The translations under genes were made by a program, and so were the position numbers. Under the pieces are notes generated by a model. It worked only from the letters and a program-made list of their open reading frames with translations. It made no database searches and was not told the DNA's origin. A stretch of DNA of 64,000 nt from Alteromonas sp. ALT199. Its GTDB lineage: Bacteria; Pseudomonadota; Gammaproteobacteria; Enterobacterales; Alteromonadaceae. The stretch spans positions 1-64,000 of the forward strand of contig NZ_JAHHDX010000132.1 in NCBI RefSeq assembly GCF_018619335.1. The letters are read 5' to 3'. Positions 31,309-61,704 of the stretch are shown here, piece after piece; within the stretch, counting starts at the first letter, position 1, and every line of letters begins with the position of its first letter.

Positions 31309-31363
31309 AACTTAAAGATTTAACGCGCCCTTGCGGCAACCATTACGAGTGCTTAACAACGTT

Positions 31364-34272
31364 ATGTCGAATACTTCCCCTACATTGGCTCAACTAGAGC
31401 AAAAAGATACATTTATCCGCCGTCACATTGGCCCGGGTAAAGGCGAAATTGAAGAAATGCTGTCTGCCATTGGTGCAAGCTCACTAGACGATTTAGTTGA
31501 GCAAACTGTACCAGCAGGTATTGCGCTACCAGAGCCACTAAAATGTGGTGAAGGGGCGACAGAAGTTGAAGCATTAGGTGAACTTAAAGCCGTTGCAGAA
31601 AAGAACAAAATTAACCGTTCTTTCATTGGTATGGGTTACTACGATACTCACGTACCGAACGTTATTCTTCGCAACGTGCTAGAAAATCCAGGTTGGTACA
31701 CCGCGTACACGCCTTACCAGCCAGAAATTGCCCAAGGTCGTTTGGAAGCCATTCTTAACTTCCAACAAGTGACCATTGACCTAACTGGCCTAGAGCTGGC
31801 GTCAGCGTCATTACTTGACGAAGGTACAGCCGCAGCAGAAGCCATGGGCCTTGCTAAGCGCGTATCTAAAAACAAAAAAGCGAATGCGTTTTTTGTTGCA
31901 AACGACGTTCACCCGCAAACGGTTGACGTGGTTGAAACTCGCGCTGAAATGTTTGGTTTTGAAATCATCAAAGGTGCGGCAGAAGAAGCAGCAGAACACG
32001 ACGTATTCGGTGCGCTACTTCAATATCCAACCTCTACCGGTGAAGTAAAAGACATCAGCGACATCATTGCTGCAGTACAAGCGAAAAAAGGTATTGTGGC
32101 AGTAGCCGCTGACCTAATGAGCTTGGTAATGCTTAAGTCGCCTGGCGAGCTAGGTGCAGACGTTGCACTTGGTAGTGCACAGCGCTTTGGTGTACCTATG
32201 GGCTATGGTGGCCCGCATGCGGCATTCTTTGCTACACGCGACAGCTACAAGCGCTCACTACCTGGCCGTATTATAGGTGTAAGTAAAGATAGCCGCGGAC
32301 GCCCAGCACTTCGCATGGCGCTACAAACCCGTGAACAGCACATTCGCCGCGAAAAAGCGAACTCGAACATTTGTACAGCGCAGGTGCTGCTAGCCAATAT
32401 GGCAAGCTTCTACGCGGTATACCACGGCCCGCAAGGTCTTAAAACTATAGCTGAGCGCATTCACCGCTTCGCCGACATTCTTGCCACTGGTATTAGCCAG
32501 AAAGGTGCAGAAAAAGGTGTAGCCCTTAAGCACAGCACCTACTTCGACACGCTAACCGTAATGGTAAGCAACAAAGAAGACGTACTAGCAAGCGCCTACG
32601 CAAAAGGCATGAATCTGCGTGCAGACCTTGAAGGTGCGGTAGGTGTATCGCTAGACGAAACCACCACGCGTGAAGACATTGTTGCACTATTCGACGTACT
32701 GCTTGGTGAAGAGCACGGGTTATCAGTTGAAGGCCTAGATGCTGAAGTAACCACGCAAGGGTTAAATCTATTCCTGATGCGCTAGTACGTACAAGCGACT
32801 TCCTAACCCACGAAGTGTTTAACAAGTATCACTCTGAAACAGAGATGCTTCGCTATATTAAGAGCCTTGAAAATAAAGACTTGGCACTTAACCACTCAAT
32901 GATTTCATTGGGTTCGTGCACCATGAAGCTAAACGCAACGGCTGAGATGATCCCAGTAACATGGGCTGAATTCGGTCAGCTTCACCCGTTCGCGCCGCTA
33001 GACCAAGCAGTAGGCTACCAAGAAATGATTGCCGAGCTAGCCGAGTGGCTAATTAACGTAACAGGCTACGATAATCTTTCTATGCAGCCTAACTCGGGTG
33101 CGCAAGGTGAATACGCAGGCCTATTGGCTATTCAGCGCTATCATGAAAGCCGCGGCGAAGGCCACAGAAACGTGTGCCTAATTCCAAGCTCTGCCCACGG
33201 TACTAACCCAGCTTCGGCACAAATGGTTAGCCTTAAAGTGGTAGTAGTAGCTTGTGACGCTAACGGTAACGTAGACCTTGATGACCTTCGCAAGAAAGCA
33301 GAAGAAGTGGGTGAGAATTTATCGTGCGCCATGATCACATACCCGTCTACCCACGGCGTATACGAAGAAACTATTCGCGAAATGTGTGACATTGTTCACC
33401 AATACGGCGGCCAAGTTTACATGGACGGCGCGAACATGAACGCGCAGGTGGGCATTACATCGCCTGGCTTCATTGGTTCAGACGTATCGCACCTTAACCT
33501 GCACAAAACCTTCTGTATTCCACACGGTGGTGGCGGCCCAGGTATGGGACCAATTGGTGTTAAGTCGCACCTTGCGCCTTTCCTACCAAACCACACGGTT
33601 GTTAACGTAGAAACCGCAGGCAAAGGCTGTGGTGCGGTATCGGCAGCGCCATGGGGCAGTGCGTCAATTCTGCCTATTAGCTATATGTACATCAAAATGA
33701 TGGGCAGCGCAGGCCTACGCAAAGCGACCGAAGTCGCTATTCTTAACGCTAACTATGTGGCTAAGAAGCTAGAAGGGCACTTCCCAGTGCTTTACAAAGG
33801 CAACAATGGCCGCGTAGCGCACGAATGTATTATTGACCTTCGCCCACTTAAAGAAGCAAGTGGTGTAACCGAGCTAGACATTGCGAAACGCCTAAACGAC
33901 TACGGTTTCCACGCGCCAACCATGAGCTTCCCAGTAGCGGGTACGCTTATGATTGAGCCAACCGAGTCGGAAGCGAAGTACGAACTAGACCGTTTCATCA
34001 ACGCCATGGTTAGCATTCGCCAAGAAATTGCGAAAGTAGAAAGTGGCGAGTGGGATGCCACTGACAACCCGCTACATAACGCACCGCACACATTGGCCGA
34101 CATATGTGACAGCGACTGGAACCGCAGCTACGACCGCATGTTAGCGGCGTACCCAGCACCAGAAGTACACAGAAACAAGTTCTGGCCAACGGTTAACCGT
34201 ATTGATGACGTTTACGGCGACCGCAACCTTATCTGTTCTTGCCCTAGCATTGAGAGTTATGTTGAGGAGTAG
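31364..34272 (+). pseudogene. gcvP: glycine dehydrogenase (P protein) with a one-base frameshift
   Basis: The P protein decarboxylates glycine using PLP. I start at the ATG at 31364 rather than the upstream TTG. The first part reads in one frame to a stop at 32783-32785. The rest continues in another frame as [16 protein letters not shown], then the region before residue 500 of the family, through the PLP lysine motif [18 protein letters not shown], to the stop at 34272. The break sits at GGTTAAATCTATTCC (32760-32774), where one A or G missing after TTAAA would restore GLKSIPDAL. Apart from this, both halves are intact and full length for the roughly 965-residue family. It may be a true recent mutation or an assembly error. 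If real, the cell could not cleave glycine. Confidence 0.88.
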
Positions 34273-34289
34273 GGGGTTGGTGATGACTG

Positions 34290-34346
34290 TTAATTAAGTC
34301 TGTGACTATTTTAATTAAGTTTGTGACTGTAATTAAGATTGTGACT
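34290..34346. repeat. three tandem 18-bp repeats after gcvP
   Basis: Units of the form (T/G)TAATTAAG(T/A)(C/T)TGTGACT start at 34290, 34311 and 34329. They differ at few positions. They lie between the gcvP stop and its terminator, and no function is evident. Confidence 0.75.
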
Positions 34347-34663: not shown

Positions 34664-34906
34664 GTGGAAGTTAAAATTGTTGAAAATGAGATCCCAGTAA
34701 TTGAATGTACATCATGCCACAACCAGTCTTTTGATATAGATAAGGAAGAGTGCCTCCTGTGTGGTCATAAGGAAGAAGTACTTGATTGTAAATGGTGTAA
34801 TGCACCGTACATCTACTCTTCATTTGAGTACGCTGAAGAGGCTGAACTGTGCCCAAGTTGTGAAAGAAAAGATGGCTACGCATCTGCTAATCATGAAAAA
34901 TATTAG
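34664..34906 (+). CDS. small four-CxxC zinc-ribbon protein, possibly a truncated gene
   Basis: An 80-residue acidic protein with four CxxC pairs (CTSC, CLLC, CKWC, CPSC), which could bind two zinc ions. The frame stays open upstream to a TAA at 34610, so residues such as IYKEFYQSLQK could precede the GTG I use. The four cysteine pairs and their spacing resemble the C-terminal part of the next gene, which carries an additional N-terminal HEPN-like domain. So this may be the tail of a once larger paralogue. No function is recognised. Confidence 0.55.
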   Translation: MEVKIVENEIPVIECTSCHNQSFDIDKEECLLCGHKEEVLDCKWCNAPYIYSSFEYAEEAELCPSCERKDGYASANHEKY

Positions 34907-34952: not shown

Positions 34953-35873
34953 TTGCAATTCAAATTCGATATAAAAGCCAATGCTATAGATAGCTTTAAC
35001 GAAGCGCTCGTAAAGTATGAACAAGGTCAAGCAGGTGATTTAAGGGCATTTAAATTCGCAATAACGCATTTGGCACATAGCGTTGAGTTAGTACTCAAAA
35101 TGTATCTTCAGACTTTAGATGAAAATCTCATCTTCTCAAAGTGCTTCAAGCATGTCACCAATAGAGCAAAGGACGACAATACTAATGTATTGGCAGCATT
35201 TAACGCTCTTAAATCAGAAAGCTTTGATTTTGAAAACCTAGTACAAGGGCACGCTTCTCCTCACACTGTCACAGTTGAACAAGCTCTCTCAATGGCTAGA
35301 TGTGAAGTGTGCAGTATCACCGGAAATCATTTTGTTGATCAAGACTTTATTGATGACATCAACTGGATGAAAAGTCTGAGGAATGAAATCGAACATTTTG
35401 AGTTTGAGTTTACCGCAAAAGATGTTCGTTTAAGCGTTGGTAAGTTGGTTCGTGGATTAGATGAGTTTACTGATCTATTTTCTCTATTCGATTTAGGAAA
35501 TGAAGTTGGTCAGGAACGCTATCAGGTCTTTAAGGTACTAGCGGATGAGTATGAGCATGCTGTCGCGGAAGCAAACATAGCTGTCGGGGAACAGAAGCAG
35601 GCGCTTTTTGCAGGGGTTAGGCCCAAACACCAGATACTCATAGAATGGAACATCTATACATGCCCTAGTTGTGGCAATAACACCATGATTCCTAACGATG
35701 ACTCTCAGATGGGATATCGCTGTACTCTCGAAGGTTGTGGTAACGAAGAATCAGAAGATATTGAGGTGGATTGCGAAATATGCGGAGCTGCTTGGGCAAA
35801 TGGAGAAATGACCTCTTGGGATGACACTTATACATATGTGTGTCCAAGATGCGAGAACCCAGAGGCTTGGTAA
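34953..35873 (+). CDS. HEPN-like domain plus C-terminal zinc-ribbon protein
   Basis: A 306-residue protein not matching a family I can name. The first 170 residues are helical, with FAITHLAHSVELVLKMYL early and LRNEIEHFEFEF later. The latter contains Arg143-x4-His148, the RxxxxH motif of HEPN ribonucleases. The last 85 residues carry four cysteine pairs (CPSC, CTLEGC, CEIC, CPRC), a double zinc ribbon. The start is a TTG with a strong AAAGGAG site eight bases upstream. HEPN proteins are common toxins and defence effectors, so an RNase role is reasonable but inferred. It lies 178 bases from the convergent ATPase/nuclease pair and may be part of the same defence cluster. Confidence 0.65.
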   Translation: MQFKFDIKANAIDSFNEALVKYEQGQAGDLRAFKFAITHLAHSVELVLKMYLQTLDENLIFSKCFKHVTNRAKDDNTNVLAAFNALKSESFDFENLVQGHASPHTVTVEQALSMARCEVCSITGNHFVDQDFIDDINWMKSLRNEIEHFEFEFTAKDVRLSVGKLVRGLDEFTDLFSLFDLGNEVGQERYQVFKVLADEYEHAVAEANIAVGEQKQALFAGVRPKHQILIEWNIYTCPSCGNNTMIPNDDSQMGYRCTLEGCGNEESEDIEVDCEICGAAWANGEMTSWDDTYTYVCPRCENPEAW

Positions 35874-36051
35874 CACGCAAAGACCGCAACTCTCACTTGG
35901 CTGCCGAGCAGCCCAAAAATACTCAAACTTCAAATTATATTATATATTCTAACACATATAATCGCCTGCGTCCGCTAAAGGCACTAATCCAAAGCTAAAG
36001 TGATAGTAATCCATATTATCTTAAGTAGAGAACTACATGTCAGTTCTTCAT

Positions 36052-37818
36052 TTAGATTACAGTTATATCAATGGTTTCTTCATGAAGTTCTCGATAATTT
36101 TCTAGTGATTGAGAAAAAAAGCTACGCTCTAACTTTCCACCGCCTACGTAAAACAGTTTTGAGTTAGTCGGAAAGTAAGAGCTTTGAACGTCTTTAACTC
36201 TGACTTTTTCGATAGGTTTGATTTCTTCATTTTCTTCAGGAATAGACTCTTTAACATGCTCAGATATTGACACAAACGTTTGAGTATCACTTGGCAGATT
36301 ATTCGCAACAAATGACAGAATAGTCTCCAAGTTAGTCTCATCAATATCCTCCTTGAGAATGGCGTCAAGCAAGAATGGTAGTCTATGGGCTGTTTTGGAT
36401 TTCGCTATCATGGCGTTTAAAGCAAAGTGATAAGCCATGACGGTCTTGTGAAGTTCAACACCTTGACGTGGGAATGAATGTATTTTGTACAAATCTAGAT
36501 ATCGAGAATCAGTTAAAGGCTTCAGCTTTAACTGTGATGTGTATGCTGTAAATATCTTCTTGAATGCCGTTTCCTTACTTATTCGCGAGAATATTGTTTC
36601 TTGTTCAGTTACCATAGAGCCAAGAGAGAGTTTAACGCCTTCTAACTCGCTTTCTGAGTGCTCAATATCTGCTTGCATTTGTTTATATAGCGTAATATTT
36701 GCTTTATTTGCCACCCACTGTTCAAACGTAACTCCGTCTACGTTTTTGTCCAAAAGTACGCCATAATCATTAAAAATTTCGTTTTCGATAGTCGTCATTT
36801 TCTTCTTAGACGAGTTTATCTTAGATTTTTTATCAATTAGCTTAGTTGTAATGTGCGACTCAAGTTCGAGGGTATCATTATATTTTTGATAGTGGCTGTA
36901 CAATCCTTCAAGTGAATATGACAGAACCTGCGTGCAGGCTGGGCAACGATCAACATCGTTGTAATTCTGTTTCTTAATATTACTCTTGGTTCTTTTCAGA
37001 ATTTTATGGTGATTTTGTAACAGAGAAAATTCATTACAAAGCTTTATGTACTTGTTCCTCTCTTCCTCTAATGACTTTGCCTTTAAAACGTAGTTTTCAA
37101 TATAGACTTCTGCTTGCTCGCCAAACGCTTCGTCAACTAAATTAGAAAACTGGAACTCTGCTTTCTTACTGTACCGTTTGAGGTTATTTATTTCAGCAGA
37201 TAGTCGATCTCTTTCCTTTGTTAACCTTCTATGCTCCAAGCGATCAAATCTGTTACTTATACCTAGGTAATAATCTAAATAGTCGTCTTTAAATCCCTTG
37301 TAATATTGAAGATTAGAGAACGACTCACGCAAATATACCCAGCCTACAGACTGAGAAATATAATATGGTAAAAACATGCTTTCAAGCGGAGCAGATTTTA
37401 GCTCTCCTTTTTGCTCAAGAATAAGCGAAAATCCAATTAAATCTCTTATGTAATCCTTCAGTCTAATGTGCTCAACACTGTTATCTGCATCTATTCCACG
37501 GAAAGAAACTATTTTTCCGCTTGGCTCTTTGACATAGATGGATTTTGAATCCCTTACAATGGTGTAAGATTCCTCAACATCACCTACTTTCTTAGTAAAG
37601 TCTACTCTGAACGTCGGCTGATATGACAGAATTTCGTCTAAACTTTCTCTAACGTCATTAACACCAAACGCGAACATTAGACTCTGGATCAAAGAGCTTT
37701 TACCTGATGTGTTGCGCCCACTAATTAGGTTTACACCAGGTGAAAACTCATTACTGAAACAAGAATTATGCGATTCAGAACTTACAAATAATCTGTTAAA
37801 CGTAATTGTTGTGTTCAT
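36052..37818 (-). CDS. SMC/Rad50-like ATPase with zinc hook
   Basis: A 588-residue ABC-type ATPase. The ATG at 37818 overlaps the stop of the nuclease gene (TAATG), so I prefer it to a start 12 codons upstream. Walker A is GRNTSGKSS (residues 34-42, Lys40). Two helical coiled-coil stretches (about 185-290 and 310-420) flank a CPAC zinc-hook at 292-295, as in Rad50. Walker B fits RLPFLLDAI with Asp485; the usual glutamate after the aspartate is replaced by alanine, which may slow ATP hydrolysis. With the partner nuclease this resembles the sensor-effector pairs of Lamassu-like and ABC-three-component defence systems. It could also be a DUF3732-type ATPase. Confidence 0.75.
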   Translation of the reverse strand: MNTTITFNRLFVSSESHNSCFSNEFSPGVNLISGRNTSGKSSLIQSLMFAFGVNDVRESLDEILSYQPTFRVDFTKKVGDVEESYTIVRDSKSIYVKEPSGKIVSFRGIDADNSVEHIRLKDYIRDLIGFSLILEQKGELKSAPLESMFLPYYISQSVGWVYLRESFSNLQYYKGFKDDYLDYYLGISNRFDRLEHRRLTKERDRLSAEINNLKRYSKKAEFQFSNLVDEAFGEQAEVYIENYVLKAKSLEEERNKYIKLCNEFSLLQNHHKILKRTKSNIKKQNYNDVDRCPACTQVLSYSLEGLYSHYQKYNDTLELESHITTKLIDKKSKINSSKKKMTTIENEIFNDYGVLLDKNVDGVTFEQWVANKANITLYKQMQADIEHSESELEGVKLSLGSMVTEQETIFSRISKETAFKKIFTAYTSQLKLKPLTDSRYLDLYKIHSFPRQGVELHKTVMAYHFALNAMIAKSKTAHRLPFLLDAILKEDIDETNLETILSFVANNLPSDTQTFVSISEHVKESIPEENEEIKPIEKVRVKDVQSSYFPTNSKLFYVGGGKLERSFFSQSLENYRELHEETIDITVI

Positions 37819-38939
37819 TACAAGGCCTCTCCGTGGTGCTCTACAAATGAGCATAAGGTAGAGAAGAAAATATCAATATCGTTTAGATTAATGCTGTTCT
37901 TACTTTTAATATCCGAAACGTACGCTTCAAACATTTCCTCATGGCTGTAATAGTTCATAGAGTAGTCATTGTCCCTAACGAAGCTTTTGATTATCTGATG
38001 CTCGTTATTCATCATGTCCTTGAGAAGTTCAAATGTGTTCTTAATATAGTTTTCGTGACTATTTTGGATACCTATAGGAACTCGAAACTTACGGGCTAAT
38101 TCTGTTGAGTGATCTCTCCACAGCTTGAATGTCTTTTGTTCCGTTTCAATGATATCAATCGCTTTCCTGATTTCATCGCCCTCAACCCTCTTAGAACTGT
38201 CAAGTAAGGTAATAATTTTGCCTTGGTTGTATATGGCTTCAACTTCCCTAAACAAGCTAAGAAGCAACTCAACGGCTGCAAAAGAATCTGATACATGTGG
38301 AAACTTTCTCCTCATTAGCCCCACTAAGCAATCTTTTTGTGCACTCTTTGTTCGTGGAAAATCCACCCATTGAATATGGAGATTGTCGAGCTCATGTTTG
38401 TGGAAAGTTAGTTCTGCCTTGTCACAGAAACTGTCTACTTTCTTGGTGATTTTGTCCTTAATATCGTCAGGAAAGGAATCGTATTTACAACTACAGTTCT
38501 GCTCGTTAAGCAGTGTTGTTATTTCCTTTTTTCCATCATCCTTTTCTTGCTGATTAGGCTTGAATTTAAGCTCAATGTCGGAGTTGGATATAAACGTTAG
38601 CTCATGAGTATAAGTTTGACATTTAGGTGCTGGATCGTTTCGGAGGTCGTTTCCAACTTCTAGCATCTTAGCTATTATTTCAGAGAAACGTTCATTTATA
38701 GTCCATACCTTGCCTGAAAGTTTTTTGGCTTGATAAGAATGCACTTCTTCAATATTGCTGCGACAATCTGTTCTGTAGCAAAATAGGAAATCGTCATGAT
38801 GCTCAATACTCAGAAAGAACTCTCTTCCATTGAATCGATTATATTCGTTTAGGAGTAAGTACAACGCACAATTGCGCTGAAACTCGAATCCCAATAAAGC
38901 ATCAATACCTGAGTTAGCTGATTTTTTTCTTGTACTCAA
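37818..38939 (-). CDS. Cap4-like (DUF4297) nuclease, partner of the SMC-like ATPase
   Basis: A 373-residue protein. The N-terminal 120 residues show the DUF4297/Cap4 PD-(D/E)xK-type pattern: GFEFQ at 17-21, Glu46 and Asp50 in IEHHDDFLF, and Gln70-x-Lys72 in SYQAKKL. These are the expected metal-binding and catalytic residues of a dsDNA nuclease. The remaining 250 residues are mostly helical with no recognised domain and may hold the contact to the ATPase. It precedes the ATPase gene with a TAATG overlap, so the two are made together. By analogy it would degrade DNA when the ATPase senses foreign DNA ends. This is inference. Confidence 0.72.
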   Translation of the reverse strand: MSTRKKSANSGIDALLGFEFQRNCALYLLLNEYNRFNGREFFLSIEHHDDFLFCYRTDCRSNIEEVHSYQAKKLSGKVWTINERFSEIIAKMLEVGNDLRNDPAPKCQTYTHELTFISNSDIELKFKPNQQEKDDGKKEITTLLNEQNCSCKYDSFPDDIKDKITKKVDSFCDKAELTFHKHELDNLHIQWVDFPRTKSAQKDCLVGLMRRKFPHVSDSFAAVELLLSLFREVEAIYNQGKIITLLDSSKRVEGDEIRKAIDIIETEQKTFKLWRDHSTELARKFRVPIGIQNSHENYIKNTFELLKDMMNNEHQIIKSFVRDNDYSMNYYSHEEMFEAYVSDIKSKNSINLNDIDIFFSTLCSFVEHHGEAL

Positions 38940-39336
38940 AGCTTCACCTTAATCAAAACCTCATAGCATCCTCATTACACAATGCCATTCGCCCTTAAAC
39001 TTTGTGACATATTGCCACTTAAGTTGCTTAGTGTAGGAGAGCAGGTTTTGCTTCTATGTCCCTTTATTGAAGAACAGTTTTACATACTTTAGGTCAAACT
39101 CATATCCCATTGCGCTCTCATTCGGCTGATTTAAATTAAAGATTAGAAATTTTAAATTGAGGGGGCTGCCATTCGCCTAAATAAAAATCAGAGAGTTATA
39201 TGCAATCGTGTGCAGTAATTTCAGACGCTAACCAGATCACGCTGTACCGTTGTGTAATGGCCTCTAAAGTCTACTCAAAACTATCCAAAACGCGCCTTTC
39301 GTGCCGATTTTGCCCCCCAAGGTGAAAATCCCGACC
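38940..39336. other. spacer upstream of the nuclease gene
   Basis: I see no gene. The left part is AT-rich and should carry the promoter of the nuclease/ATPase pair. From about 39240 the composition becomes clearly richer in GC, marking a junction with foreign, decayed DNA. Confidence 0.4.
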
Positions 39337-40136: not shown

Positions 40137-40526
40137 TCACTTTTCAAGTAACTGCAATACCCCACACTCTTTAACTTTTCTATCATCTGTGCATGCCGAG
40201 GCCATCTCAGATAGTGTAAGTTTTAGCTCCTCAAGCTCTGCAATGCGATGTGTGACGTCAACCATATGTTGATGGATCAAATTGTTCACACTAGAACAAC
40301 TTTTGTCGGGATTATTTTTCGTATCCAACAGCTGTTTAATTTCTATTATAGTCAAATCTAATGAGCGACATTGCTTAATGAATCGCAGTGCTCTCAACGA
40401 TGACGCGTCGTAAATTCTATAGTTGCCTTCACTGCGATTGCAAGCCTCAAACAAATCCTGTTTTTCATAAAAACGGATCGTCTGAATAGAACACCCACTT
40501 TTTTTTGATAGCTCACCTATTTTCAT
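40137..40526 (-). CDS. cadR: MerR family Cd(II)/Pb(II)-responsive regulator, CadR/PbrR-like
   Basis: A 129-residue MerR regulator. The winged-helix DNA-binding domain covers residues 1-70 (MKIGELSKKSGCSIQTIRFYE). A long dimerisation helix and a C-terminal metal loop follow. Cysteines at 77, 112 and 121 match the three-cysteine site of CadR and PbrR (77, 112, 119), so Cd, Pb or Zn is the likely inducer. It is divergent from the first CDF gene, across an 81-base intergenic region holding a MerR-type promoter. It probably represses and, with metal, activates the whole resistance cluster. Confidence 0.9.
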   Translation of the reverse strand: MKIGELSKKSGCSIQTIRFYEKQDLFEACNRSEGNYRIYDASSLRALRFIKQCRSLDLTIIEIKQLLDTKNNPDKSCSSVNNLIHQHMVDVTHRIAELEELKLTLSEMASACTDDRKVKECGVLQLLEK

Positions 40527-40544
40527 AAACGCGCCTTTTTGTTG

Positions 40545-40575
40545 TTGACTCTATACTAAATATAGACTTTACACT
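40545..40575 (+). promoter_or_regulatory. MerR-type promoter and operator of the metal cluster
   Basis: The -35 TTGACT (40545-40550) and -10 TACACT (40570-40575) are separated by 19 bp, longer than the usual 17 and typical of MerR-controlled promoters. The spacer holds the dyad CTATA-CTAAA-TATAG (40551-40565). It lies 33 bases before the CDF start. Confidence 0.85.
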
Positions 40576-40607
40576 GTACCTATAATTTTGGGAATAAGAG
40601 TTGAACA

Positions 40608-41243
40608 ATGAGTGGTTGCGGCTGTGAAGTGGAAATCAAAGATGCCTCACAAAAACGGGTTTTGTATTGGCTGCTTGGCATCAATGCGACGATGTTTTTC
40701 GTTGAGATGACCGTTGGTATTTTGGCTGACTCTACTGCCTTGATAGCAGACTCTATGGATATGCTAGCGGATGCGGTTGTATACGGCATAGGTATTTATG
40801 CTGTGGGTCAATCTATACTTTACAAAGCCAAAGCTGCGCAAATCAGTGGTTACTTTCAGCTGTTGCTGGGCGTGATCATTCTCATTGATATTACCAGAAG
40901 ATTATTCTTGGGCAGTGAGCCTATCTCATCATTAATGATAGGAATGGGGTTCATTGCACTCATTGCAAACGTCGCTTGCTTGGTGATTATTCGTAATCAT
41001 AAAAACGACGAAGTACATATGCGAGCCAGCTGGATTTTTTCAGCTAACGATGTCATTGCCAACATGGGTGTCATCATCGCCGGTGTTCTAGTGGTATGGC
41101 TTGATAGCAGAATGCCGGATCTGGTTATCGGCTGTATAGTGTCAATAGTCGTGCTACGCGGAGCGTGGATGATCCTGAAAGACGCCAAGCAGGAAGCACT
41201 TAATAACGAAGTACAGAAATGTAAAGCGGGTGATCCACAATGA
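40608..41243 (+). CDS. cation diffusion facilitator-type transporter, short form
   Basis: A 211-residue inner-membrane protein with about six helices and no C-terminal cytoplasmic domain. The TM2 metal motif is DSMDMLADA. In TM5, ANDVIANMG replaces the HxxxD of zinc transporters, which hints at a different metal preference. The N-terminus begins MSGCGCEVE, with a CGC cluster able to bind metal. It is directly behind the MerR promoter and overlaps the DUF3703 gene by ATGA. Export of Cd, Zn or Co is inferred from the context. Confidence 0.85.
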   Translation: MSGCGCEVEIKDASQKRVLYWLLGINATMFFVEMTVGILADSTALIADSMDMLADAVVYGIGIYAVGQSILYKAKAAQISGYFQLLLGVIILIDITRRLFLGSEPISSLMIGMGFIALIANVACLVIIRNHKNDEVHMRASWIFSANDVIANMGVIIAGVLVVWLDSRMPDLVIGCIVSIVVLRGAWMILKDAKQEALNNEVQKCKAGDPQ

Positions 41244-41599
41244 CATACAATAAAGCCGTTAAGCCGCATATCGATTCCAAATTAACCGATTACTTAGATG
41301 CAATGTCTAACAATAATGAGAGGCAGGCATTTGCAGCGCTGGAGGATGCGCATGTAATTGGTCAGCACTCTACTTATTATCATTGTTTAATCCATTATAA
41401 AATGCTGCGACATGGTTTTCTAAACAAAGATTGGAGAGCCGTTTTTGGACAAGTTATAAGAATAATTGGTGCTGCAACCAAAACCGCTATCGGCCTTGTA
41501 CCCAAAGGGAACACAGGTGGCACTAATATCAGTCCATTCAAACGACTACCGGTAAGTGCTAAAAATCAAGCGATATTGGACAAAATCAATCATGCATAA
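41240..41599 (+). CDS. DUF3703 protein
   Basis: A 119-residue soluble protein of the DUF3703 family, often found with CDF and czc genes. Conserved parts are AFAALEDAHVIGQHSTYYHCLIH, with several histidines, HGFLNKDWRAVFGQVIRI and a C-terminal VPKGNTGGTNISPFKRLPVS. The histidines could bind metal, but no role is proven. It overlaps its neighbours at both ends (4 and 8 bases), so it is part of the same translationally coupled operon. Confidence 0.85.
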   Translation: MTYNKAVKPHIDSKLTDYLDAMSNNNERQAFAALEDAHVIGQHSTYYHCLIHYKMLRHGFLNKDWRAVFGQVIRIIGAATKTAIGLVPKGNTGGTNISPFKRLPVSAKNQAILDKINHA

Positions 41600-42476
41600 T
41601 CATAACCACAGTCACAGTAATAACAGCGCTTCAAAACGCATTGGCTGGGCATTTTTCTTGAATGTCGTATTTACTATCATTGAATTTATTGGCGGATGGC
41701 TGACAAACAGCACGGCCATAATGGCTGACGCAGTACATGATTTGGGCGATAGTTTATCTATTGGCACTGCATGGGGATTGAACAAGCTAAGCGATAAAGA
41801 AGCGAATACCACATTTTCATATGGTTATAAACGATTTTCGCTGTTAGGCGCTTTGATCAACGGAATTGTTTTAACTATAGGCTCAATATGGATTTTGTTC
41901 GAGGCCATACCTAGGCTTTCAGCACCTGAAATGCCGCAAGTGGAAGGTATGTTAATGCTTTCGATATTTGGTATCGCGGTAAATGGTTTTGCCGCATATA
42001 AACTTAGCGAAGGGAGCTCCTTAAACGAACGTATCTTAAACTGGCACTTACTTGAAGATGTATTGGGTTGGGTGGCAGTGCTGATCGTATCGATTGTGCT
42101 GATGTTCAAGCCATGGGCAATTTTGGATCCCATTTTATCTATTGGCTTTACATTATTCATTTTATTTAATGTCGTCAGAAATCTAAAAGAAACCTTGTTG
42201 TTATTCTTGCAAGGCACGCCAGATACGACGCAGATGGTGAAAGTGCGTAAAGTACTTATGTCAAACGCTGATGTGGCGGATATACATCATTTTCATATCT
42301 GGTCTTTGGACGGTGAACATAGCGTCATGACGGCACATGTGGTGTTGAAACAAGATGTTTCGATTTCTCAATTGAGAACACTCAAAGACGAATTTCGTCA
42401 CGACCTTGGTGAATTTGACTTTGTGCACACTACCATTGAAATTGAATTTGCCAGTGAAGATTGCCGTGATAAGTAA
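41592..42476 (+). CDS. czcD: CzcD-like Zn/Cd/Co cation diffusion facilitator
   Basis: A 294-residue CDF exporter that expels divalent metal from the cytoplasm against protons. I start at ATG 41592, which gives the histidine-rich MHNHNHSHSNN seen in CzcD proteins, rather than an upstream frame start. The TM2 site is MADAVHDLGDSLS and the TM5 site HLLEDVLGW, both with HxxxD. A cytoplasmic C-terminal ferredoxin-like domain follows (VADIHHFHIWSLDGEHSVMT). Compared with the short CDF gene upstream it is the classical zinc-type exporter. Confidence 0.92.
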   Translation: MHNHNHSHSNNSASKRIGWAFFLNVVFTIIEFIGGWLTNSTAIMADAVHDLGDSLSIGTAWGLNKLSDKEANTTFSYGYKRFSLLGALINGIVLTIGSIWILFEAIPRLSAPEMPQVEGMLMLSIFGIAVNGFAAYKLSEGSSLNERILNWHLLEDVLGWVAVLIVSIVLMFKPWAILDPILSIGFTLFILFNVVRNLKETLLLFLQGTPDTTQMVKVRKVLMSNADVADIHHFHIWSLDGEHSVMTAHVVLKQDVSISQLRTLKDEFRHDLGEFDFVHTTIEIEFASEDCRDK

Positions 42477-42563
42477 TGTAATGGTTGAAATACTTTGTTT
42501 TGGTTGGTCGATTGGCCTTAGTTCGATAAGCTGTTAACATAAACATGATGAGAGAAGATAGAT

Positions 42564-42959: not shown

Positions 42960-43033
42960 CCCTGAACTAATCAAACACCGTTCGCCAACAACTTGGCGAT
43001 ATATATTTTTGATAATTTAGGAATAAAACAACA

Positions 43034-45288: not shown

Positions 45289-45323
45289 TCACGCAAGACT
45301 ATCTGTCTGGTCTATCGCCCTAA

Positions 45324-48455
<3,132 letters not shown>

Positions 48456-54326: not shown

Positions 54327-54779
54327 TATGACAATTTTTCAGAGATTTTTATGAATTGTTGTCGTGAATTTCTTTTGCTTTTTTAGAGGGAAAAGTGGGG
54401 CAGATTTTAGCGGATAGTTTATGTAGGTAGATGATTTTACATAGGAAGTACCACCACTTGGGAGTGGGTGCTGTTGGCGCTAGCCACGACAAAAAAGAGA
54501 TAAAAAAATCTGAATTTTAAGGAAAAAAGCTACTGAAGGAAAAAATACTTAAAAATTACGATTTTTAAAAAAATACATTAATATCATGAAGTTACGTGTC
54601 AAGTTGATATAGCGGAAAATCGCTTAAAAGATAAGTTTATACGGCTAAAATTGACTGATTTTAAAACTCTCATATATTATGTAAGTTTCTGAATTATAAC
54701 ATAAAAATTCAATGACTTGCAGTCTTGAAAAACACTTTTTTTGCTGTATGGTGCGTGTTTTTTATACAGGGTGCGCAGC
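54327..54779. other. AT-rich region between hipA-like gene and tnsA
   Basis: The Tn7-like end close to tnsA should lie here, but I could not define a TGT...ACA tip or an array of about 22-bp TnsB sites. Just before tnsA are CTGTAT (54744-54749) and ATACAG (54764-54769) as an inverted repeat, plus a repeated GGTGCG (54750 and 54770). These could be the operator or TnsB-binding site controlling the tns operon. Confidence 0.45.
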
Positions 54780-55607
54780 ATGAAACACATTATCGTCACA
54801 GCGAGTTACGACGACATTAAAAAGCTGAATGCATGGAAGCGCGACTATCAACAGACCGGGCTTTTTAAGCCTTTTGTTACAGTAAGAGATGTCAACAGGG
54901 TCGGGCGAAGACATTGGTCTCGCTGTCCCGTTCAAGAGCTTGAGACGCATGAGCTGTCAGACGGTGAATATCGTGCATATAGAAAGCTAATGATGTCCAA
55001 GCATTGCATAGAAGTGCTAGAACAATATCCGCTTGATATCGATGAGACTCTCGATATCGCTGTTGCGATGAATCTTATTCATCCACGCGATTATAAGTCT
55101 AATATCGCGCACGTGATGACGACAGATTTTCTTGCTAAATATCGCTCTGCAACGGGAGAGAACTATCGCATTGCTTATACATTTAAGTACTTTGACGTGA
55201 TTTATGAAGAAGATGAGTTGGGGAATATCTCTCGTAAAAATGAGCGGACATGGCAGAAATTTGAAATTGAAAGACAGTATTGGCAGCGCAGAAAAGTCGG
55301 CTATCAAGTGCTCACTGAGCGAGATGCGACGAAAGCAGAATCGTGGAATTACAATTACTTTGAGCGAGGGCTTGGGACAAAAGCGACTTCATCTGAATTA
55401 GAAGCATTTTGCCTAGACTTTATCGAGAGTTGGTTAGCATCGCCCAGGGCTGAATTGCAAGAGCATTTACAGCGAATTTCAACAACTAACAACGAGAGTT
55501 TTCAGCGTGTGCAAAGCTTGTTTCAGAGCGCTTGCCAGAGAAGCCTATTGCCCATCGATACGACTAAATATGTTCGCTTATTTCGTCCTGTAGGGCTGAC
55601 GATATGA
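54780..55607 (+). CDS. tnsA: TnsA endonuclease of a Tn7-like transposon
   Basis: TnsA cuts the 5' ends of the transposon, so that with TnsB the element leaves by cut-and-paste. I start at ATG 54780; an earlier frame start lacks support. The protein has 275 residues. The restriction-enzyme-like catalytic residues fit Glu63, Asp116 (in VMTTDFLAKY) and Lys136 (in AYTFKYF), matching Tn7 TnsA Glu63, Asp114 and Lys132. A C-terminal domain for TnsC contact begins near 170. It overlaps tnsB by four bases (ATGA). Confidence 0.92.
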   Translation: MKHIIVTASYDDIKKLNAWKRDYQQTGLFKPFVTVRDVNRVGRRHWSRCPVQELETHELSDGEYRAYRKLMMSKHCIEVLEQYPLDIDETLDIAVAMNLIHPRDYKSNIAHVMTTDFLAKYRSATGENYRIAYTFKYFDVIYEEDELGNISRKNERTWQKFEIERQYWQRRKVGYQVLTERDATKAESWNYNYFERGLGTKATSSELEAFCLDFIESWLASPRAELQEHLQRISTTNNESFQRVQSLFQSACQRSLLPIDTTKYVRLFRPVGLTI

Positions 55608-57832
55608 TTTATGCGGGACAACATATTGTCGATGATAAAAAGCGTGTGAAGCTACTGGTCTGTCACGTTGATTTGGCGTTAAAAACGGCCGCGGTAACGG
55701 ATTTGGTGCGAATAGAGGGGGCAGAGAATATACCTAAGCCAGCGCTGATGAAGTTTTCAGCGTTGTACGCCGTATTACGAAGCCCAAGTGCAACGTCGGC
55801 GCAGTATGAGTTCGATGCAGAACTGTCTTTAAGCGATGATGCAATTACGCAGCTAGGCAAACAAAATTGGCTCAAGAAGCGTGACAAGAAATACACGTTA
55901 ATCGCGCCTCTTACAACAGAAGTTATGATACGCCAATACTTATATCGAGATGGTATTGCAGAAGACGTCAGGCAGTTAATTGACACTAATCGGCAGCTAG
56001 CAATTCCTGGAGCATGGAGTACAAAAGGTGCTTATTACCATGCACTGAATCGCTTTATCGTCTTCGGATGTACGCGGAATGCTTTACTCCCCGTCAAGCT
56101 GAAAAATGTTGGCAAGAATACACATTTGCCAGCAAAAATTGGTGACAAGAACATTAAACGTGGTCGAGGCGGTGCTGATAATCGTTTCAGTCGCTCTAAA
56201 TCCATGGGCGTGACTGAGCAGCATAAAGCGCAGATGCGTGCGACCATTGCGTTCATGAAATCCAAAGATGGAAAAATTCAATACCCAAAGTTTGCGATTT
56301 ATAAAGCGATTGAATTATATCAGTACAATTTTGAGTCGACTGTTATCGAGCGAACTGTCGATAATGTAACAACTGAAACACGCATTCCGTTTGACGAGGA
56401 ACACTCGCTCTCAGAAGCCCAGTTGAGGTATCACTACAAACAAATCCTTGATAAAACTGAGTATTTGAAAATCCGGTATGGTCACATCGCTTATGAAAAA
56501 GATCATGCTGACAGACAGGGGAGCTCACACGACGGCGTACTAGGGGCAACATTTCGCTATGAAGTTGACGCTACCGTTTTAGATAAATATATACGCTATC
56601 CATTTGATAATACTGGCCAATACTCGATGGGGAGACCTGTCCTTTACATTGTTATTGACGTGTTTTCTACGGCGATTGTCGGAATGTACGTAGGATTTGA
56701 TGGCCCTAATTGGGCCGGGGCAAGTCAGGCTCTAGTGAATGCATGCAGTGATAAAGTGGCGTTTGCTGCACAATTTGGCGTGACGATTACTGAAGATGAG
56801 TGGCCATGCCACCACGTTCCAGTGGAAATCACCGTTGATAACGGCAGAGAATATCCCGATGGTCTTATTGAGTCAGTGCTTCGCACCGAAATCGGCGTGC
56901 GAGGGTTTAACTTTACGGCAGTATTCAGAGGTGATGCCAAAGCCGTGGTTGAGAAAAAGTTTGATGTCTTAAATAAAGGCTCACTTCATTTTTCACCGGG
57001 AGCTATCCCAGAAGCCCCGCAGCGTGGGGAGCAGCATCCATCTAACCAAGCGCTTCTCGACTATGATTCGCTCGTTGCTGAGCTTATCCATACGATCGTC
57101 TTGCACAATAACTCCGCAGACAGACTGCATCGACTAGATATAAACGCTATCCGAGCGGGTATTGATATCACGCCGATCTCGCTCTTTAAGCATAGTTTGA
57201 CTCAAGAAATGAATGGCGGCCGGGATGCAAAAAAAGAAGAGCAAGGACGTCTACAGTGGGCTTTCTTGCCTGAAGAGACTGCGTCAGTTCGGAGCGATGG
57301 CATTTATTTTGATGGTCTTGTTTATTATTCAGATTACGCGAAAAAAGCTGGATGGTTCACAAAAGCAAAACATCATGGCGCGTTCAAAATTCCTGTAAAG
57401 CGTTGGCGGCAATGGACGACGCACCTGTGGCATAAAACACTGGATGGTCAGTATGTTTGTTTCAATTTGAAAAATGTTAACGATGAAAGTCCTTTCATCG
57501 ATCAACATTGGGAACCGGTGCTTCATCTGCTGGAGCAGTTCAAAGATAAACGTCATGAAAACAGGCTTAATCTGAAGAAACTGCGCATTGCGAAACAGCA
57601 GTATTCTCAAGAGCTCATACGCTTAAATCAGCAAATTATTGCAAGTGCTCCAGACAATACTCGTGTGAGCATGAGTCCTCGAATTAAAGAATTACAGCGT
57701 CAATACGCCGCTGTTCAACATGTAAAGCATGCGTTGGAAATCCACGAGCAACTTGCCAATGAAAACAGCACTGCGTCACTTCTCCCGAATTTCGGATATG
57801 ACGACATTGATAACGAATTATTTGGAGATTAA
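55604..57832 (+). CDS. tnsB: TnsB DDE transposase
   Basis: The 742-residue transposase of the DDE/retroviral-integrase superfamily binds the ends and joins the 3' strands to target DNA. The catalytic triad is Asp322 (FRYEVDATVLD), Asp412 (ITVDNGREYPDG) and Glu450 (DAKAVVEKKFD). N-terminal helix-turn-helix segments bind DNA, and a C-terminal tail for TnsC follows (to about 742). All residues are intact, so the transposase should be active. It is somewhat longer than Tn7 TnsB (about 702). Confidence 0.94.
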   Translation: MIYAGQHIVDDKKRVKLLVCHVDLALKTAAVTDLVRIEGAENIPKPALMKFSALYAVLRSPSATSAQYEFDAELSLSDDAITQLGKQNWLKKRDKKYTLIAPLTTEVMIRQYLYRDGIAEDVRQLIDTNRQLAIPGAWSTKGAYYHALNRFIVFGCTRNALLPVKLKNVGKNTHLPAKIGDKNIKRGRGGADNRFSRSKSMGVTEQHKAQMRATIAFMKSKDGKIQYPKFAIYKAIELYQYNFESTVIERTVDNVTTETRIPFDEEHSLSEAQLRYHYKQILDKTEYLKIRYGHIAYEKDHADRQGSSHDGVLGATFRYEVDATVLDKYIRYPFDNTGQYSMGRPVLYIVIDVFSTAIVGMYVGFDGPNWAGASQALVNACSDKVAFAAQFGVTITEDEWPCHHVPVEITVDNGREYPDGLIESVLRTEIGVRGFNFTAVFRGDAKAVVEKKFDVLNKGSLHFSPGAIPEAPQRGEQHPSNQALLDYDSLVAELIHTIVLHNNSADRLHRLDINAIRAGIDITPISLFKHSLTQEMNGGRDAKKEEQGRLQWAFLPEETASVRSDGIYFDGLVYYSDYAKKAGWFTKAKHHGAFKIPVKRWRQWTTHLWHKTLDGQYVCFNLKNVNDESPFIDQHWEPVLHLLEQFKDKRHENRLNLKKLRIAKQQYSQELIRLNQQIIASAPDNTRVSMSPRIKELQRQYAAVQHVKHALEIHEQLANENSTASLLPNFGYDDIDNELFGD

Positions 57833-57837
57833 TCACG

Positions 57838-59271
57838 ATGATTGAAGACGCACAATACGCTCCACACCTTGATATCAACTTGAACAATAATCCGCTATCG
57901 GAAGCATTGAGAGTTGAGCTTTATACATCGACTTTATTGGAAAAACTTACCGTCAATGCGGATGTCATGGCTAATTTCTGGGAATTACCACTATTTTATC
58001 AAACGACACAGCTACGCCAGTTGACAGAGATACATATTCCCGCGTCGCAGACCTACTTTCTCTATAACAAAATAATGAGCCTGATTTTATTTGGCTATGT
58101 AAAACGAAATCCATTTTCTGCGCAAATGCGTGGGCTTGGCGACAAGATTGCTGCGGCGATGCGTGCAGGAAAATACTATGGGTTTAGTAGCGAAAGTACA
58201 TATACAGCGCCCAGCGCATTAGTCCACGGTGAGTCGGGGACGGGGAAGACGACGGTGATACGTCGGACTTTGAAGCAAATACCGCAAACTATTCAACATA
58301 ATAGCTATCGAGGGAAACATTTCACAAAGAAGCAGATTGTCTGGTTGTCATTTGATTTACCGCCGAATGGTTCACCAAAAGCAATGGTTAATAACTTTAT
58401 TAGAGCGGTTGATAAAGCGTTGGAAAATGACTTCGAAGAAAGTTATGCCAAGCAGTGGGTAGATGGCAATGGAAAGTATTCGGTAGATAAGCTGATGGCG
58501 GTGATGCAAAACATCGCGATGCAACACTGTGTTGGGTTGGTACATATTGATGAACTGCAATTTATGCTTGGTTATCATAAAGTTAAAGATAGTCCATCAC
58601 TTCAAGTCTTAGAGGCATTGTTCAATAAAATAAGTATTCCACTACTACTAAGTTCGACTACTCGAGGTGTGGAAATTTTTAATACCCTCAAAGCAGATGA
58701 TCATCGGTTGGGACACGACATTACTATTGTAAGGCGAATGCTCAATGACAGAGAGTTTCGCCTGAGTCCCTATCCTCTAGAGTCAAAATCGTTTGAACGG
58801 TTATTTGATGCTTTATTTCCTCCAGGAATCATTCTCAACGATGACACGGAACAGCGTGATGTGTTCACCAAGCAGTTTCACAAGTTGTCATGCGGTTTGC
58901 CTGCGATCATGACACGCCTTGCTCATCAGTTTCATGAGACGCTAGTAAATATCCTTCAGCAGCCTGAAAATCGTCATAAATATACGACGTCATTCGATGT
59001 GGAGCTGCTCAATAAAGTCTTTAAGAATCAGTTTCATTTAATTGAACCTGCGTTGGTTGCCCTTCGTGCAGGAAACGCGGCAACATACGAGTCAAAAGTA
59101 CGAGACAATGATGTAAAGAAGGCCGTTTATTCAAATGCCGAAGTGCAAGCGTTAGAGAAAGCCAAACGGACACAATTGTCTCCTCAGCCGAAAGTACTAA
59201 AGTTTGATGATGCTCCGCAGGAAGGAATAGGACTGATTGAGTCAGCTTTTCTGAAGGATAAGCAAAAATGA
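57838..59271 (+). CDS. tnsC: TnsC AAA+ regulator
   Basis: The 477-residue ATPase forms filaments on target DNA and links target selectors to TnsA-TnsB. Walker A is GESGTGKTT (131-139), and Walker B is VHIDELQ with Asp238 and Glu239. A sensor segment, PLLLSSTTRG, lies near 275. The N-terminal region of about 130 residues should contact TnsB/TnsD. It begins five bases after tnsB and overlaps tniQ by four bases. Confidence 0.93.
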   Translation: MIEDAQYAPHLDINLNNNPLSEALRVELYTSTLLEKLTVNADVMANFWELPLFYQTTQLRQLTEIHIPASQTYFLYNKIMSLILFGYVKRNPFSAQMRGLGDKIAAAMRAGKYYGFSSESTYTAPSALVHGESGTGKTTVIRRTLKQIPQTIQHNSYRGKHFTKKQIVWLSFDLPPNGSPKAMVNNFIRAVDKALENDFEESYAKQWVDGNGKYSVDKLMAVMQNIAMQHCVGLVHIDELQFMLGYHKVKDSPSLQVLEALFNKISIPLLLSSTTRGVEIFNTLKADDHRLGHDITIVRRMLNDREFRLSPYPLESKSFERLFDALFPPGIILNDDTEQRDVFTKQFHKLSCGLPAIMTRLAHQFHETLVNILQQPENRHKYTTSFDVELLNKVFKNQFHLIEPALVALRAGNAATYESKVRDNDVKKAVYSNAEVQALEKAKRTQLSPQPKVLKFDDAPQEGIGLIESAFLKDKQK

Positions 59272-60236
59272 TTAGTTCACCTTCACTGCCATATCTGTTG
59301 CCTAATGAGCACCTAATAAGCGGTTTGGTACGTTGGTTTAATCATACCGGGTTGAATGAATTTCGGAGAACCTGTAGTCCGTATTTTCAAAATATATCGA
59401 CCCTCTCGCCAATGGCGGCCTGGCGTCCGCTTTATAGTGAGATCGCACAGATATACCGGCATACCTTGAGCCCCCAGCAATTACTGAGTCAGCACTCATT
59501 GTTGAATTATTACTATCCGTTTTTTCTTACTAAGGAGCGAGCAATTGCAGATGAACAATTATTGCTGAATCACCTCGATATAAAAATCCAACCAGGTTTA
59601 CAAAAACATCTACGGCATGCTCACCATTGGCGATGGTGCTCTCAATGTGTTTCAGATGATGTAAGCCAGTTCGGTGGACCGTATTGGCATACTTATCATC
59701 AAATTCCGACGATGCTGCATTGTTATCGTCATGGCGAAGTTTTACTGGCAGGTTGTGAAAGCTGTGGCTTCAGATTTACATCATTTGATACCCATTGGTT
59801 ACCACCAGACGATAGCCAATGCCCCGTCTGCCAGACTGAACTTAAAGGGCAATGTATACCGCTAACAGGCACTGTACGCTGGCTTGAATCGGTGAGTTAT
59901 GCGCTTCAGAGGGAAAAGTCGGAGATTACGCGAGAGAAGTTTTTGTCGTGGATACACGACAAACTTGGGTTTCACACATTACCTTCAATTTATAGCCTGG
60001 CTTTGCGAAAGAAACTGAGTCGTTTACGACTCGAATTCACTGACAGCCTGGATGACGAACTGCTTTCTTTGTATTTTCGAGAAGAGCCATCGAGGCTAAG
60101 AGGCGCGACCCAAAAGCTATTAAATATCATTTGGGTTGCTTACAGGGGGACATCTGTACCGCCTATAAGTCTATTACTTATGCTTAGGCACCTCGGACTC
60201 GAACATCAATTAACCTGTATGCTCACTGAACAGTAA
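59268..60236 (+). CDS. tniQ: TniQ-family protein, short
   Basis: A 322-residue TniQ-family protein. The N-terminal region has LPYLLPNEHLISGLVRW. The zinc-finger part includes WCSQC, HCYRHG, CESCG and CPVC. It lacks the long C-terminal DNA-binding part of TnsD, so it resembles the smaller TniQ (TniD-type) found beside a TnsD-like protein in Tn6022-type operons. It probably recruits TnsC to some target or supports the second selector. Confidence 0.85.
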   Translation: MISSPSLPYLLPNEHLISGLVRWFNHTGLNEFRRTCSPYFQNISTLSPMAAWRPLYSEIAQIYRHTLSPQQLLSQHSLLNYYYPFFLTKERAIADEQLLLNHLDIKIQPGLQKHLRHAHHWRWCSQCVSDDVSQFGGPYWHTYHQIPTMLHCYRHGEVLLAGCESCGFRFTSFDTHWLPPDDSQCPVCQTELKGQCIPLTGTVRWLESVSYALQREKSEITREKFLSWIHDKLGFHTLPSIYSLALRKKLSRLRLEFTDSLDDELLSLYFREEPSRLRGATQKLLNIIWVAYRGTSVPPISLLLMLRHLGLEHQLTCMLTEQ

Positions 60237-60243
60237 GGAGAAT

Positions 60244-61704
60244 ATGATGACATGGAATGTCAGAGATTTTTGTCCAGAGATTCTGCCAAAAGAAACGGTC
60301 TATAGCTGGGTAGCTCGCTGGTTGGAGGCGATACCTGTTCCTAACATCGATGAAGCTGCAACTGTGTTAATTGGTTCATCAAGTAAACAATGGGATGCAA
60401 GCTTGCCCAGTTTTTTACCTGAACTGTGTGCGTTTTCAGGAATGACAATTGAATCGCTTATAAACCAACACACGCTCATCCCTTACTACCGTCACTTTTG
60501 TAGGCCGGAAACATTTAAAAACATACTTATTGATATAAGCGTCGGCGATACGTCGTCCAGTTACAGTAAGTTATCGCTGGTAGCGGGAAGAGTGATTGAC
60601 TCCCCAACGTTAAATTATTGTCCAGAGTGTGCCAAAAAGGATATTCAAGAAATGGGAATAGCCTATTGGCATATTGAGCATCAATTACCTGGCGTCAGTG
60701 TTTGTAATCATCATAGTCTGCATCTACATCGAGTTAAAAGACAAAGAGGCGTACTTGTAAAGCCGCCACAATTTGAGTGTGGAATCACCAGCCATAAAGC
60801 GAATCACGTTGCTCATAAACTGGCGATAATGAGTTCAGTATTATTAAGTGAGCCAATTGGGTTCGTACATGGTGAACCCATGGCCCAGCTTTATGTTGCG
60901 CGACTGCAGGAAATTGGAATGGCAACTGGACGTCACCACATAAAGCAGCGATTATTAAGTCGTGCTTTACGCGCTTACTGGCAACCAATATCTAAAGAGC
61001 CCTTAGTAAAACAAATTTTTTCGTTGGGAAACGGCACTGCATTTCCTCAAACGTTGTTTTATCACAGTGACAATTCCTTCCATCCGCTAAAACATCTTCT
61101 CATGATTGGCTTTCTTTTTGATTCTGTTGGTACTTGTTTGAACTACTCAAGGCCGCAATTAACAACGGAGAAAGAAAGCGATAATCAGCAAACGCAATCA
61201 AGTTTGAGGAAGGAAAAAAAGGCGTTGGCTGCGCTAGAAGGAGGAAGTAGCTTGCGTGCAGCAAGTCGTGTAAGTGGTTTGAGCGTAATAAAAGTTAAGC
61301 AATTGGCGTTGGCTAATAAATACTATGTCGACAGACGAGAAAGTAAGTTGTTTGCCTGCGAGAGGTTGAAAATTGTTCAAGCGCTTGCTGAGGGAAAGTC
61401 TACTCAGACTATTGCTAAAGCGATGACGTGTTCTGTTGGGGCGGTCGAGCAGCTATTGACTCAGCATCCGGAATTAAAACTAAAGCGTGAAAAATTGCGT
61501 TATCGACGGAAAAAAGCATTTGCCAGGGCACATCTCATTATGGCCATAAAGTCTTTAGAGAATAATCGGCTCACGCGAAATGAACTCAAAGCGTTAGTTG
61601 GCGGAACTTATGCTTGGCTGTACAAGCACGACAAAGAGTGGCTATACGCCAGATTGCCTACTAGACGAGCTTATTGTTACTGGCCCCGCAAAACTTTTTG
61701 TTAA
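60244..61704 (+). CDS. tnsD: TnsD-like target-site selector (TniQ domain plus helix-turn-helix)
   Basis: A 486-residue protein. The N-terminal TniQ domain (about 1-180) carries zinc motifs YCPEC and CNHHSLHLH. The C-terminal 150 residues hold several helix-turn-helix segments, such as GGSSLRAASRVSGLSVIKVK and STQTIAKAMTCSVGAVEQLL. These would read a specific chromosomal attachment site, as TnsD does for glmS. The site is not known here. With TniQ it makes two TniQ-type selectors in one operon. The operon ends here. Confidence 0.88.
   Translation: MMTWNVRDFCPEILPKETVYSWVARWLEAIPVPNIDEAATVLIGSSSKQWDASLPSFLPELCAFSGMTIESLINQHTLIPYYRHFCRPETFKNILIDISVGDTSSSYSKLSLVAGRVIDSPTLNYCPECAKKDIQEMGIAYWHIEHQLPGVSVCNHHSLHLHRVKRQRGVLVKPPQFECGITSHKANHVAHKLAIMSSVLLSEPIGFVHGEPMAQLYVARLQEIGMATGRHHIKQRLLSRALRAYWQPISKEPLVKQIFSLGNGTAFPQTLFYHSDNSFHPLKHLLMIGFLFDSVGTCLNYSRPQLTTEKESDNQQTQSSLRKEKKALAALEGGSSLRAASRVSGLSVIKVKQLALANKYYVDRRESKLFACERLKIVQALAEGKSTQTIAKAMTCSVGAVEQLLTQHPELKLKREKLRYRRKKAFARAHLIMAIKSLENNRLTRNELKALVGGTYAWLYKHDKEWLYARLPTRRAYCYWPRKTFC

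Follow-up and report, generated by a model that had tools for sequence, protein, structure and literature searches.

Lamassu systems usually consist of three components, and activity against phages or plasmids that depends on both LmuA and LmuB has been reported for the family; according to excerpts of a review (PMC10586767), in which types I and II of Lamassu are both cited, LmuC "is lacking in some systems". Beyond this review, nothing useful on two-gene Lamassu was found in the literature. Solved structures carry the Protein Data Bank (PDB) titles "CryoEM Structure of LmuAB-DNA complex" (9ux7), "nuclease sequestration state" (9hqu) and "type II Lamassu, LmuACB" (9uxh). Here, a pair of genes, lmuA and lmuB, was analyzed in a 64,000-nucleotide stretch of Alteromonas sp. 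ALT199 DNA (contig NZ_JAHHDX010000132.1, positions 1–64,000), referred to as the window. The pair very probably constitutes an intact two-gene (type I) Lamassu system of the anti-phage/anti-plasmid kind that is carried as cargo by a Tn7-like transposon behind gcvP. Type I is used here as what we take to be the label for two-gene Lamassu. The analysis established which genes these are, that they form a two-gene unit with intact motifs for the nuclease and for ATP binding, that they are under purifying selection and that they lie inside the element; the pair is a fresh example of a known defence system and not an undescribed one.

Identification of lmuA and lmuB

As the original prediction had stated, lmuA and lmuB are coupled by a TAATG overlap; both frames were found, sharing one base, with no open reading frame (ORF) between them (Table 1). 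The longest mechanical lmuB frame begins at 37854 and was not used, since tblastn alignments to relatives start at the ATG at 37818. In PADLOC the pair was named LmuA plus LmuB: LmuA matched model PDLC00244 over residues 1–371 of 373 (E 7.3e-148), and LmuB matched PDLC00250 over residues 1–586 of 588 (E 8.7e-244). The predicted likeness to Lamassu or ABC-three-component (ABC-3C) defence without a third component thus agreed with these results. Its further suggestion of an undescribed variant did not hold, since PADLOC has models for both proteins, the absence of LmuC is already mentioned in the review excerpts and 9ux7 has been solved; the pair falls into a known full system with exactly these genes.

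The claim that LmuB is a Rad50-like ATPase with a CPAC hook and an alanine in place of the Walker B glutamate was confirmed by the PDLC00250 match, the CPAC motif and the sequence FLLDA (Asp485-Ala486); Gly39, Lys40 and Ser41 of Walker A were invariant in a 16-row alignment. For LmuA, a DUF4297-type nuclease with intact residues had been predicted. Glu46, Asp49, Asp50, Gln70 and Lys72, which we take from the fold family to be the active site, were all present and invariant in 15/15 aligned rows, whereas the type found no counterpart in Pfam (no family at E ≤ 1) or NCBIfam (no match). The assignment of LmuA as an effector with an N-terminal Cap4/DUF4297 nuclease is therefore based on the LmuA models of PADLOC, among them one with a DUF4297 description, and on the predicted fold. 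Only generic ATPase matches were obtained for LmuB in Pfam and NCBIfam. The LmuA start codon (38937–38939) was TTG in all nine close gammaproteobacterial rows, the window included, GTG in E. coli and ATG in five distant rows; the conserved TTG is perhaps a brake on a toxic nuclease.

Table 1. Features of the lmuAB locus and of the element that carries it (window coordinates)
Feature	Position	Strand	Remarks
Left GTTGG target duplication	34276..34280	.	Starts with the fourth base past the gcvP stop (34272); compared by eye
Left transposon end	34281..34346	+	Three AATTAAG-type, TnsB-site-like repeats (34290-34346)
Small zinc-ribbon gene	34664-34906		Neighbour of the HEPN-like gene
HEPN-like gene	34953-35873	+	PADLOC candidate defence family PDC-S64, E 2.3e-18
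lmuB	36052..37818	-	SMC/Rad50-like coiled-coil ABC ATPase, 588 aa, ATG at 37818
Walker B of LmuB, LPFLLDAILKEDID	36340..36381	-	Ala486 at the position of the catalytic Glu
Zinc hook CPAC (LmuB residues 292-295)	36934..36945	-	CPxC in 16/16 subclade rows
Walker A GRNTSGKSS with Lys40 (LmuB residues 34-42)	37693..37719	-	From the alignment of 22 LmuBs
lmuA	37818..38939	-	Cap4-type nuclease effector, 373 aa, TTG start
E46...D49 D50...Q70-A-K72 of LmuA	38724..38804	-	Likely PD-(D/E)xK-type active site
tnsA, tnsB-like, tnsC-like, tniQ, tnsD	54741..61704	+	Pfam

Structural models of the two proteins were predicted from 13- and 14-row alignments. The top Foldseek match of the LmuA model was 9ux7_C (E 7.8e-06, 373 alignment columns, template-modelling (TM) scores 0.47/0.55), and that of the LmuB model was 9ux7_A (E 1.2e-14), with the three-component LmuACB (9uxh), 9hqu, SMC and Rad50 among its further matches. 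By sequence, a profile of 16 LmuBs also reached 9ux7_A (E 1.8e-10); single-sequence searches of the PDB yielded fragments of Rad50 as well as an unrelated depolymerase when LmuB was the query, and no credible match when it was LmuA. Directly after LmuA in the Foldseek results came the Cap4 nuclease 6vm5 (E 1.9e-04), as would be expected if LmuA were the Cap4 effector of a cyclic-oligonucleotide-based antiphage signalling system (CBASS) responding to a cyclic nucleotide; such systems combine a SAVED sensor domain with a cyclase partner. However, Cap4 was aligned over about 270 columns only, at a TM-score of about 0.3, so that 9ux7 LmuA fits better, and the partner gene encodes a full-length LmuB; a CBASS origin is hardly conceivable.

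Several points speak against assignment to two-gene Lamassu. Sequence likeness to the solved LmuAB was weak, and a profile search of the PDB with LmuA found no LmuA chain at E ≤ 1. The models were moderate (predicted local distance difference test values of 77.7 and 78.8), and the Foldseek matches to 9ux7 had TM-scores of 0.47–0.55 with root-mean-square deviations of 8.8 and 31.5. Besides, the hairpin and killing data in the review excerpts (PMC10586767) come from a three-gene Vibrio system and not from a two-gene one.

Distribution and conservation of the pair

Besides the window, 14 complete two-gene loci were examined, with sources as far apart as Alteromonas, E. coli, Bacteroidota and a plasmid of Paenibacillus (L001–L007, L009–L011, L013, L014, L038 from E. 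coli JX2 and L039 from the Paenibacillus plasmid). In all 15 loci, lmuA and lmuB overlap or lie at most 8 bases apart with no ORF between them. When the ORFs in flanks of at most 5 kb were compared all against all by blastp (L014 has little flank), no common extra gene emerged, the exceptions being gcvP (window and L003), a recombinase-like gene at the two Pontibacter loci and a single short match linking L006 to L007. LmuC was thus represented neither by an ORF between the genes nor by one common to the flanks; an LmuC fused to LmuA was not covered by this comparison. Pairwise ratios of nonsynonymous to synonymous substitution rates among the window, L014 and L007 were 0.107–0.151 for LmuA and 0.128–0.185 for LmuB, which shows that the pair is under purifying selection. 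These results bear on whether the locus is a three-gene Lamassu or ABC-3C system that decayed by loss of LmuC and no longer works. Although Lamassu usually has three components, the pair is found without an intervening gene in all 14 other complete loci, across phyla, the flanks share no extra gene, both genes are intact and under purifying selection, and a two-component LmuAB-DNA complex has been solved (9ux7); decay is therefore very unlikely. The two-gene state is instead the normal one of this Lamassu branch.

Full-length LmuB was present in 3 of 59 genus genomes, that of the window included, with LmuA beside each. In the order sample, any LmuB match was found in 10 of 394 genomes; apart from the window's own, one showed 35% identity near full length and two 25%, and the others were short. 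The LmuA model matched 2 of 369 genomes in the class sample (the window's own and one partial match), and the LmuB model matched 6 of 398 in the phylum sample at E ≤ 1e-20 (the window's own included), with no match in the control genomes in either case. One LmuA relative, L013, was found in a scan of viral contigs, and plasmid (30) and phage (12) records contained only LmuBs of less than 60% identity. Among 5426 E. coli genomes, three contained similar DNA, which covered 67% of the query at about 65% identity, and the pair of E. coli JX2 adjoins a tRNA-Thr gene and an integrase. More distant nuclease-ATPase pairs were found on Klebsiella and Vibrio plasmids. As it occurs in few genomes of the genus and order samples, the pair has a sporadic, mobile pattern of distribution.

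Walker B and zinc hook across LmuBs

A comparison of 22 LmuBs was made, in which the window LmuB and 15 others at 34–94% identity to it formed a subclade. Sequences left out were one broken copy at a contig start (L008/L032/L037), the window itself (L012, L028, L029, L031), the same contig as that of L007 (L015), short or weak matches (L016–L019, L023–L027), an LmuA fragment (L030), a locus without a tblastn match (L035) and one annotated as two pieces (L042). Conversely, L020 was included here and not among the complete pairs, as its adjoining LmuA-like frame has only 112 aa.

All 16 subclade LmuBs showed Asp-Ala followed by KED at Walker B, whereas the six more distant ones, as well as the LmuB of 9ux7, had Asp-Ser. 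The CPxC hook was present throughout the subclade and absent from four of the six distant LmuBs; excerpts of the review likewise state that many, not all, LmuBs have a zinc hook and that the Walker B residue is generally Gln (PMC10586767). Since Ser and Gln are found elsewhere, loss of the catalytic Glu is a trait of the family, of which Ala is the version of this subclade. Alanine at this position would mean that ATP is not hydrolyzed, which is what the review excerpts infer for the Gln form (PMC10586767).

The Tn7-like element and its insertion behind gcvP

Tn7-like transposons are defined by TnsA, TnsB, TnsC and TniQ/TnsD proteins, repeat-bearing inverted ends and a 5-bp target duplication. 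A corresponding set of genes lies at 54741–61704 in the window (Table 1), with Pfam matches to TnsA (E 1.8e-12), AAA_22/TniB (E 9.5e-13 / 1.4e-7), TniQ (E 5.8e-10) and TnsD (E 3.4e-23); the tnsB-like gene was called by its position and a Mu-transpos_C match below the Pfam cut-off (E 7.6e-4). AATTAAG-type repeats were found three times in the window compared to 0.29 expected, and three copies in the opposite direction lie past its end, at contig positions 68014, 68069 and 68126. The right end is followed by a second GTTGG and then by sequence resembling that directly behind gcvP in the repeat-free relatives L059, L062 and L063; the site in L063 has a single GTTGG. As GTTGG occurs at both ends, the element, with its boundary set by eye, spans contig positions 34281 to 68152 (about 33.9 kb, extending past the window) and is flanked by a 5-bp duplication. 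Of eight relatives in the genus, five cease to match the DNA behind gcvP of the window at about 34280; the other three do so at 34341 and have related repeats in their own DNA there. The element contains the Lamassu pair, the HEPN-like gene, a metal-efflux cluster and hipA; at 40137–48455, genes for a MerR regulator, a cation-efflux protein and an RND-type efflux protein were seen, with more efflux-like frames by eye.

At E < 1e-55, the window TnsD (60244–61704) matched 21 genomes of the overlapping genus (59) and order (394) samples, with 22 matches in total. Eighteen of these matches, in 17 genomes including that of the window, lie 7–45 kb downstream of gcvP on the same contig and strand, so that gcvP is probably an attachment site of this TnsD group. 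The other four (G219, G074, G101, G009) are on a contig other than that of gcvP, and two of them belong to the top three once the window's own match is set aside; that of G219 is probably not at gcvP, being more than 300 kb into its contig. None of the six weaker genus matches examined was linked to gcvP; the linkage count leaves aside eleven matches in the order sample (E 2.9e-40 to 4.1e-31) and a second, short one in G055. No paper pairing a Tn7-like element with gcvP, or glycine dehydrogenase with TnsD, was found among the papers searched; in a survey of target selectors, no word of the main text starts with glycine or gcv, although the site may be listed in some supplementary table.

The gcvP-downstream site was occupied by largely different genes in eight genus members (L059–L066); by eye, L061 has a cas-like operon there, L065 an hsd-like restriction operon and L063 a DUF262-like/ATPase pair. 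In the window, gcvP (31331–34272) is present as two frames (31331–32785 and 32815–34272), compared to one long frame in all 15 other genus genomes examined; the break is either real or an assembly error. In Rheinheimera sp. EpRS3 (L003, 6862–9776), the pair lies directly behind gcvP, convergent with it and about 280 bases away, and the end-repeat motif of the window was not found there. The genus relatives G042 and G001 have the pair and no match to the window TnsD, which places their pairs in another setting. A TniQ search of nine genomes with relatives of the pair (L001–L006, L009–L011) gave no match (0/9) and was uninformative, as the controls gave none either.

The neighbouring HEPN-like gene

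The original prediction had considered that, with the HEPN gene alongside, the pair may be an undescribed variant. Indeed, this gene, a small zinc-ribbon gene and lmuAB adjoin, and the HEPN-like protein, in which an R-x4-H motif and a C-terminal zinc ribbon were seen by eye, matches a candidate defence family (Table 1), as would be expected if the HEPN and zinc-ribbon genes acted with the nuclease-ATPase pair as an undescribed system. However, the HEPN gene is on the opposite strand and convergent with lmuAB, and it was found only in the window's own genome among the 59 of the genus, compared to 3/59 for the pair. In two genus relatives, the blocks shared with the window (36020–39183 and 36034–39142, about 3.1 kb) contain the pair and exclude the HEPN gene. 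Using tblastn, the HEPN gene was found beside no other LmuB in 42 loci, many with about 1.5 kb of flank; the only matches (L012, L028, L031) are the window itself. A joint system is accordingly most improbable, the convergent strand, the 1/59 occurrence and the absence from other loci ruled out HEPN as a third component, and we regard it as a separate gene.

Possible mechanism and significance

By analogy with the Lamassu family, from the review excerpts (PMC10586767) and the PDB titles "nuclease sequestration state" and "LmuAB-DNA complex", we infer that an LmuB dimer, joined via the CPAC zinc hook, would bind ATP and keep LmuA inactive. When LmuB meets aberrant DNA such as ends or hairpins arising in infection or plasmid replication, LmuA would be freed or rearranged and cut DNA without distinction, so that the infected cell dies. 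As this subclade has Ala in place of the catalytic Glu, ATP would most likely serve as a binding latch and activation would be one-way. A broader scenario, which we consider possible and on the whole somewhat doubtful, is that this LmuAB subfamily gave up ATP hydrolysis (fixed Ala, altered signature QGVELH) and turned ATP-bound LmuB into a single-use nuclease latch, carried here by a family of Tn7-like elements for which the 3′ end of gcvP is the homing site and which load it with defence genes.

With Ala at Walker B, the subclade offers a natural way to see whether ATP hydrolysis is required at all for Lamassu activation. With its ends, an empty site and close relatives, the well-delimited copy makes gain, loss and exchange of cargo traceable, and gcvP, if confirmed, would be an added Tn7-like attachment site and a place to seek defence genes among bacteria of this order. 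An Ala shared by the whole subclade and a transposon that probably homes to gcvP add a little to the value of the finding.

Comparison with known systems

CBASS Cap4 has a related nuclease domain; here, however, the partner is an SMC-like ATPase and LmuA is closer to 9ux7_C. The ATPase-plus-effector logic is shared with Lamassu type II, DdmABC and ABC-3C (LmuA-LmuC-LmuB), and 9uxh and 9hqu were among the LmuB matches, whereas a third gene between the two was found in none of the 15 loci. The element resembles Tn7-like transposons (tnsABC with tniQ/tnsD) in gene order, domains, inverted end repeats and 5-bp duplication, and in carrying defence genes as cargo (excerpts of Benler 2021, PMC8649781); it differs in its apparent target, the gcvP 3′ end. 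The LmuAB of 9ux7/9ux8 was the top match for both models and shares two components, a CxxC hook and the absence of the Walker B Glu, although identity in the fold alignments was only 12% (LmuA) and 15% (LmuB) and 9ux7 has Ser after the Walker B Asp where the window LmuB has Ala. Compared to Lamassu type I, the locus has the same overlapping genes, with a Cap4/DUF4297-type nuclease first and an SMC/Rad50-like ATPase second, no LmuC and near-full-length matches to PDLC00244 and PDLC00250; it differs by the Ala of its subclade where Gln is general (excerpts of PMC10586767), a difference compatible with membership of this type.

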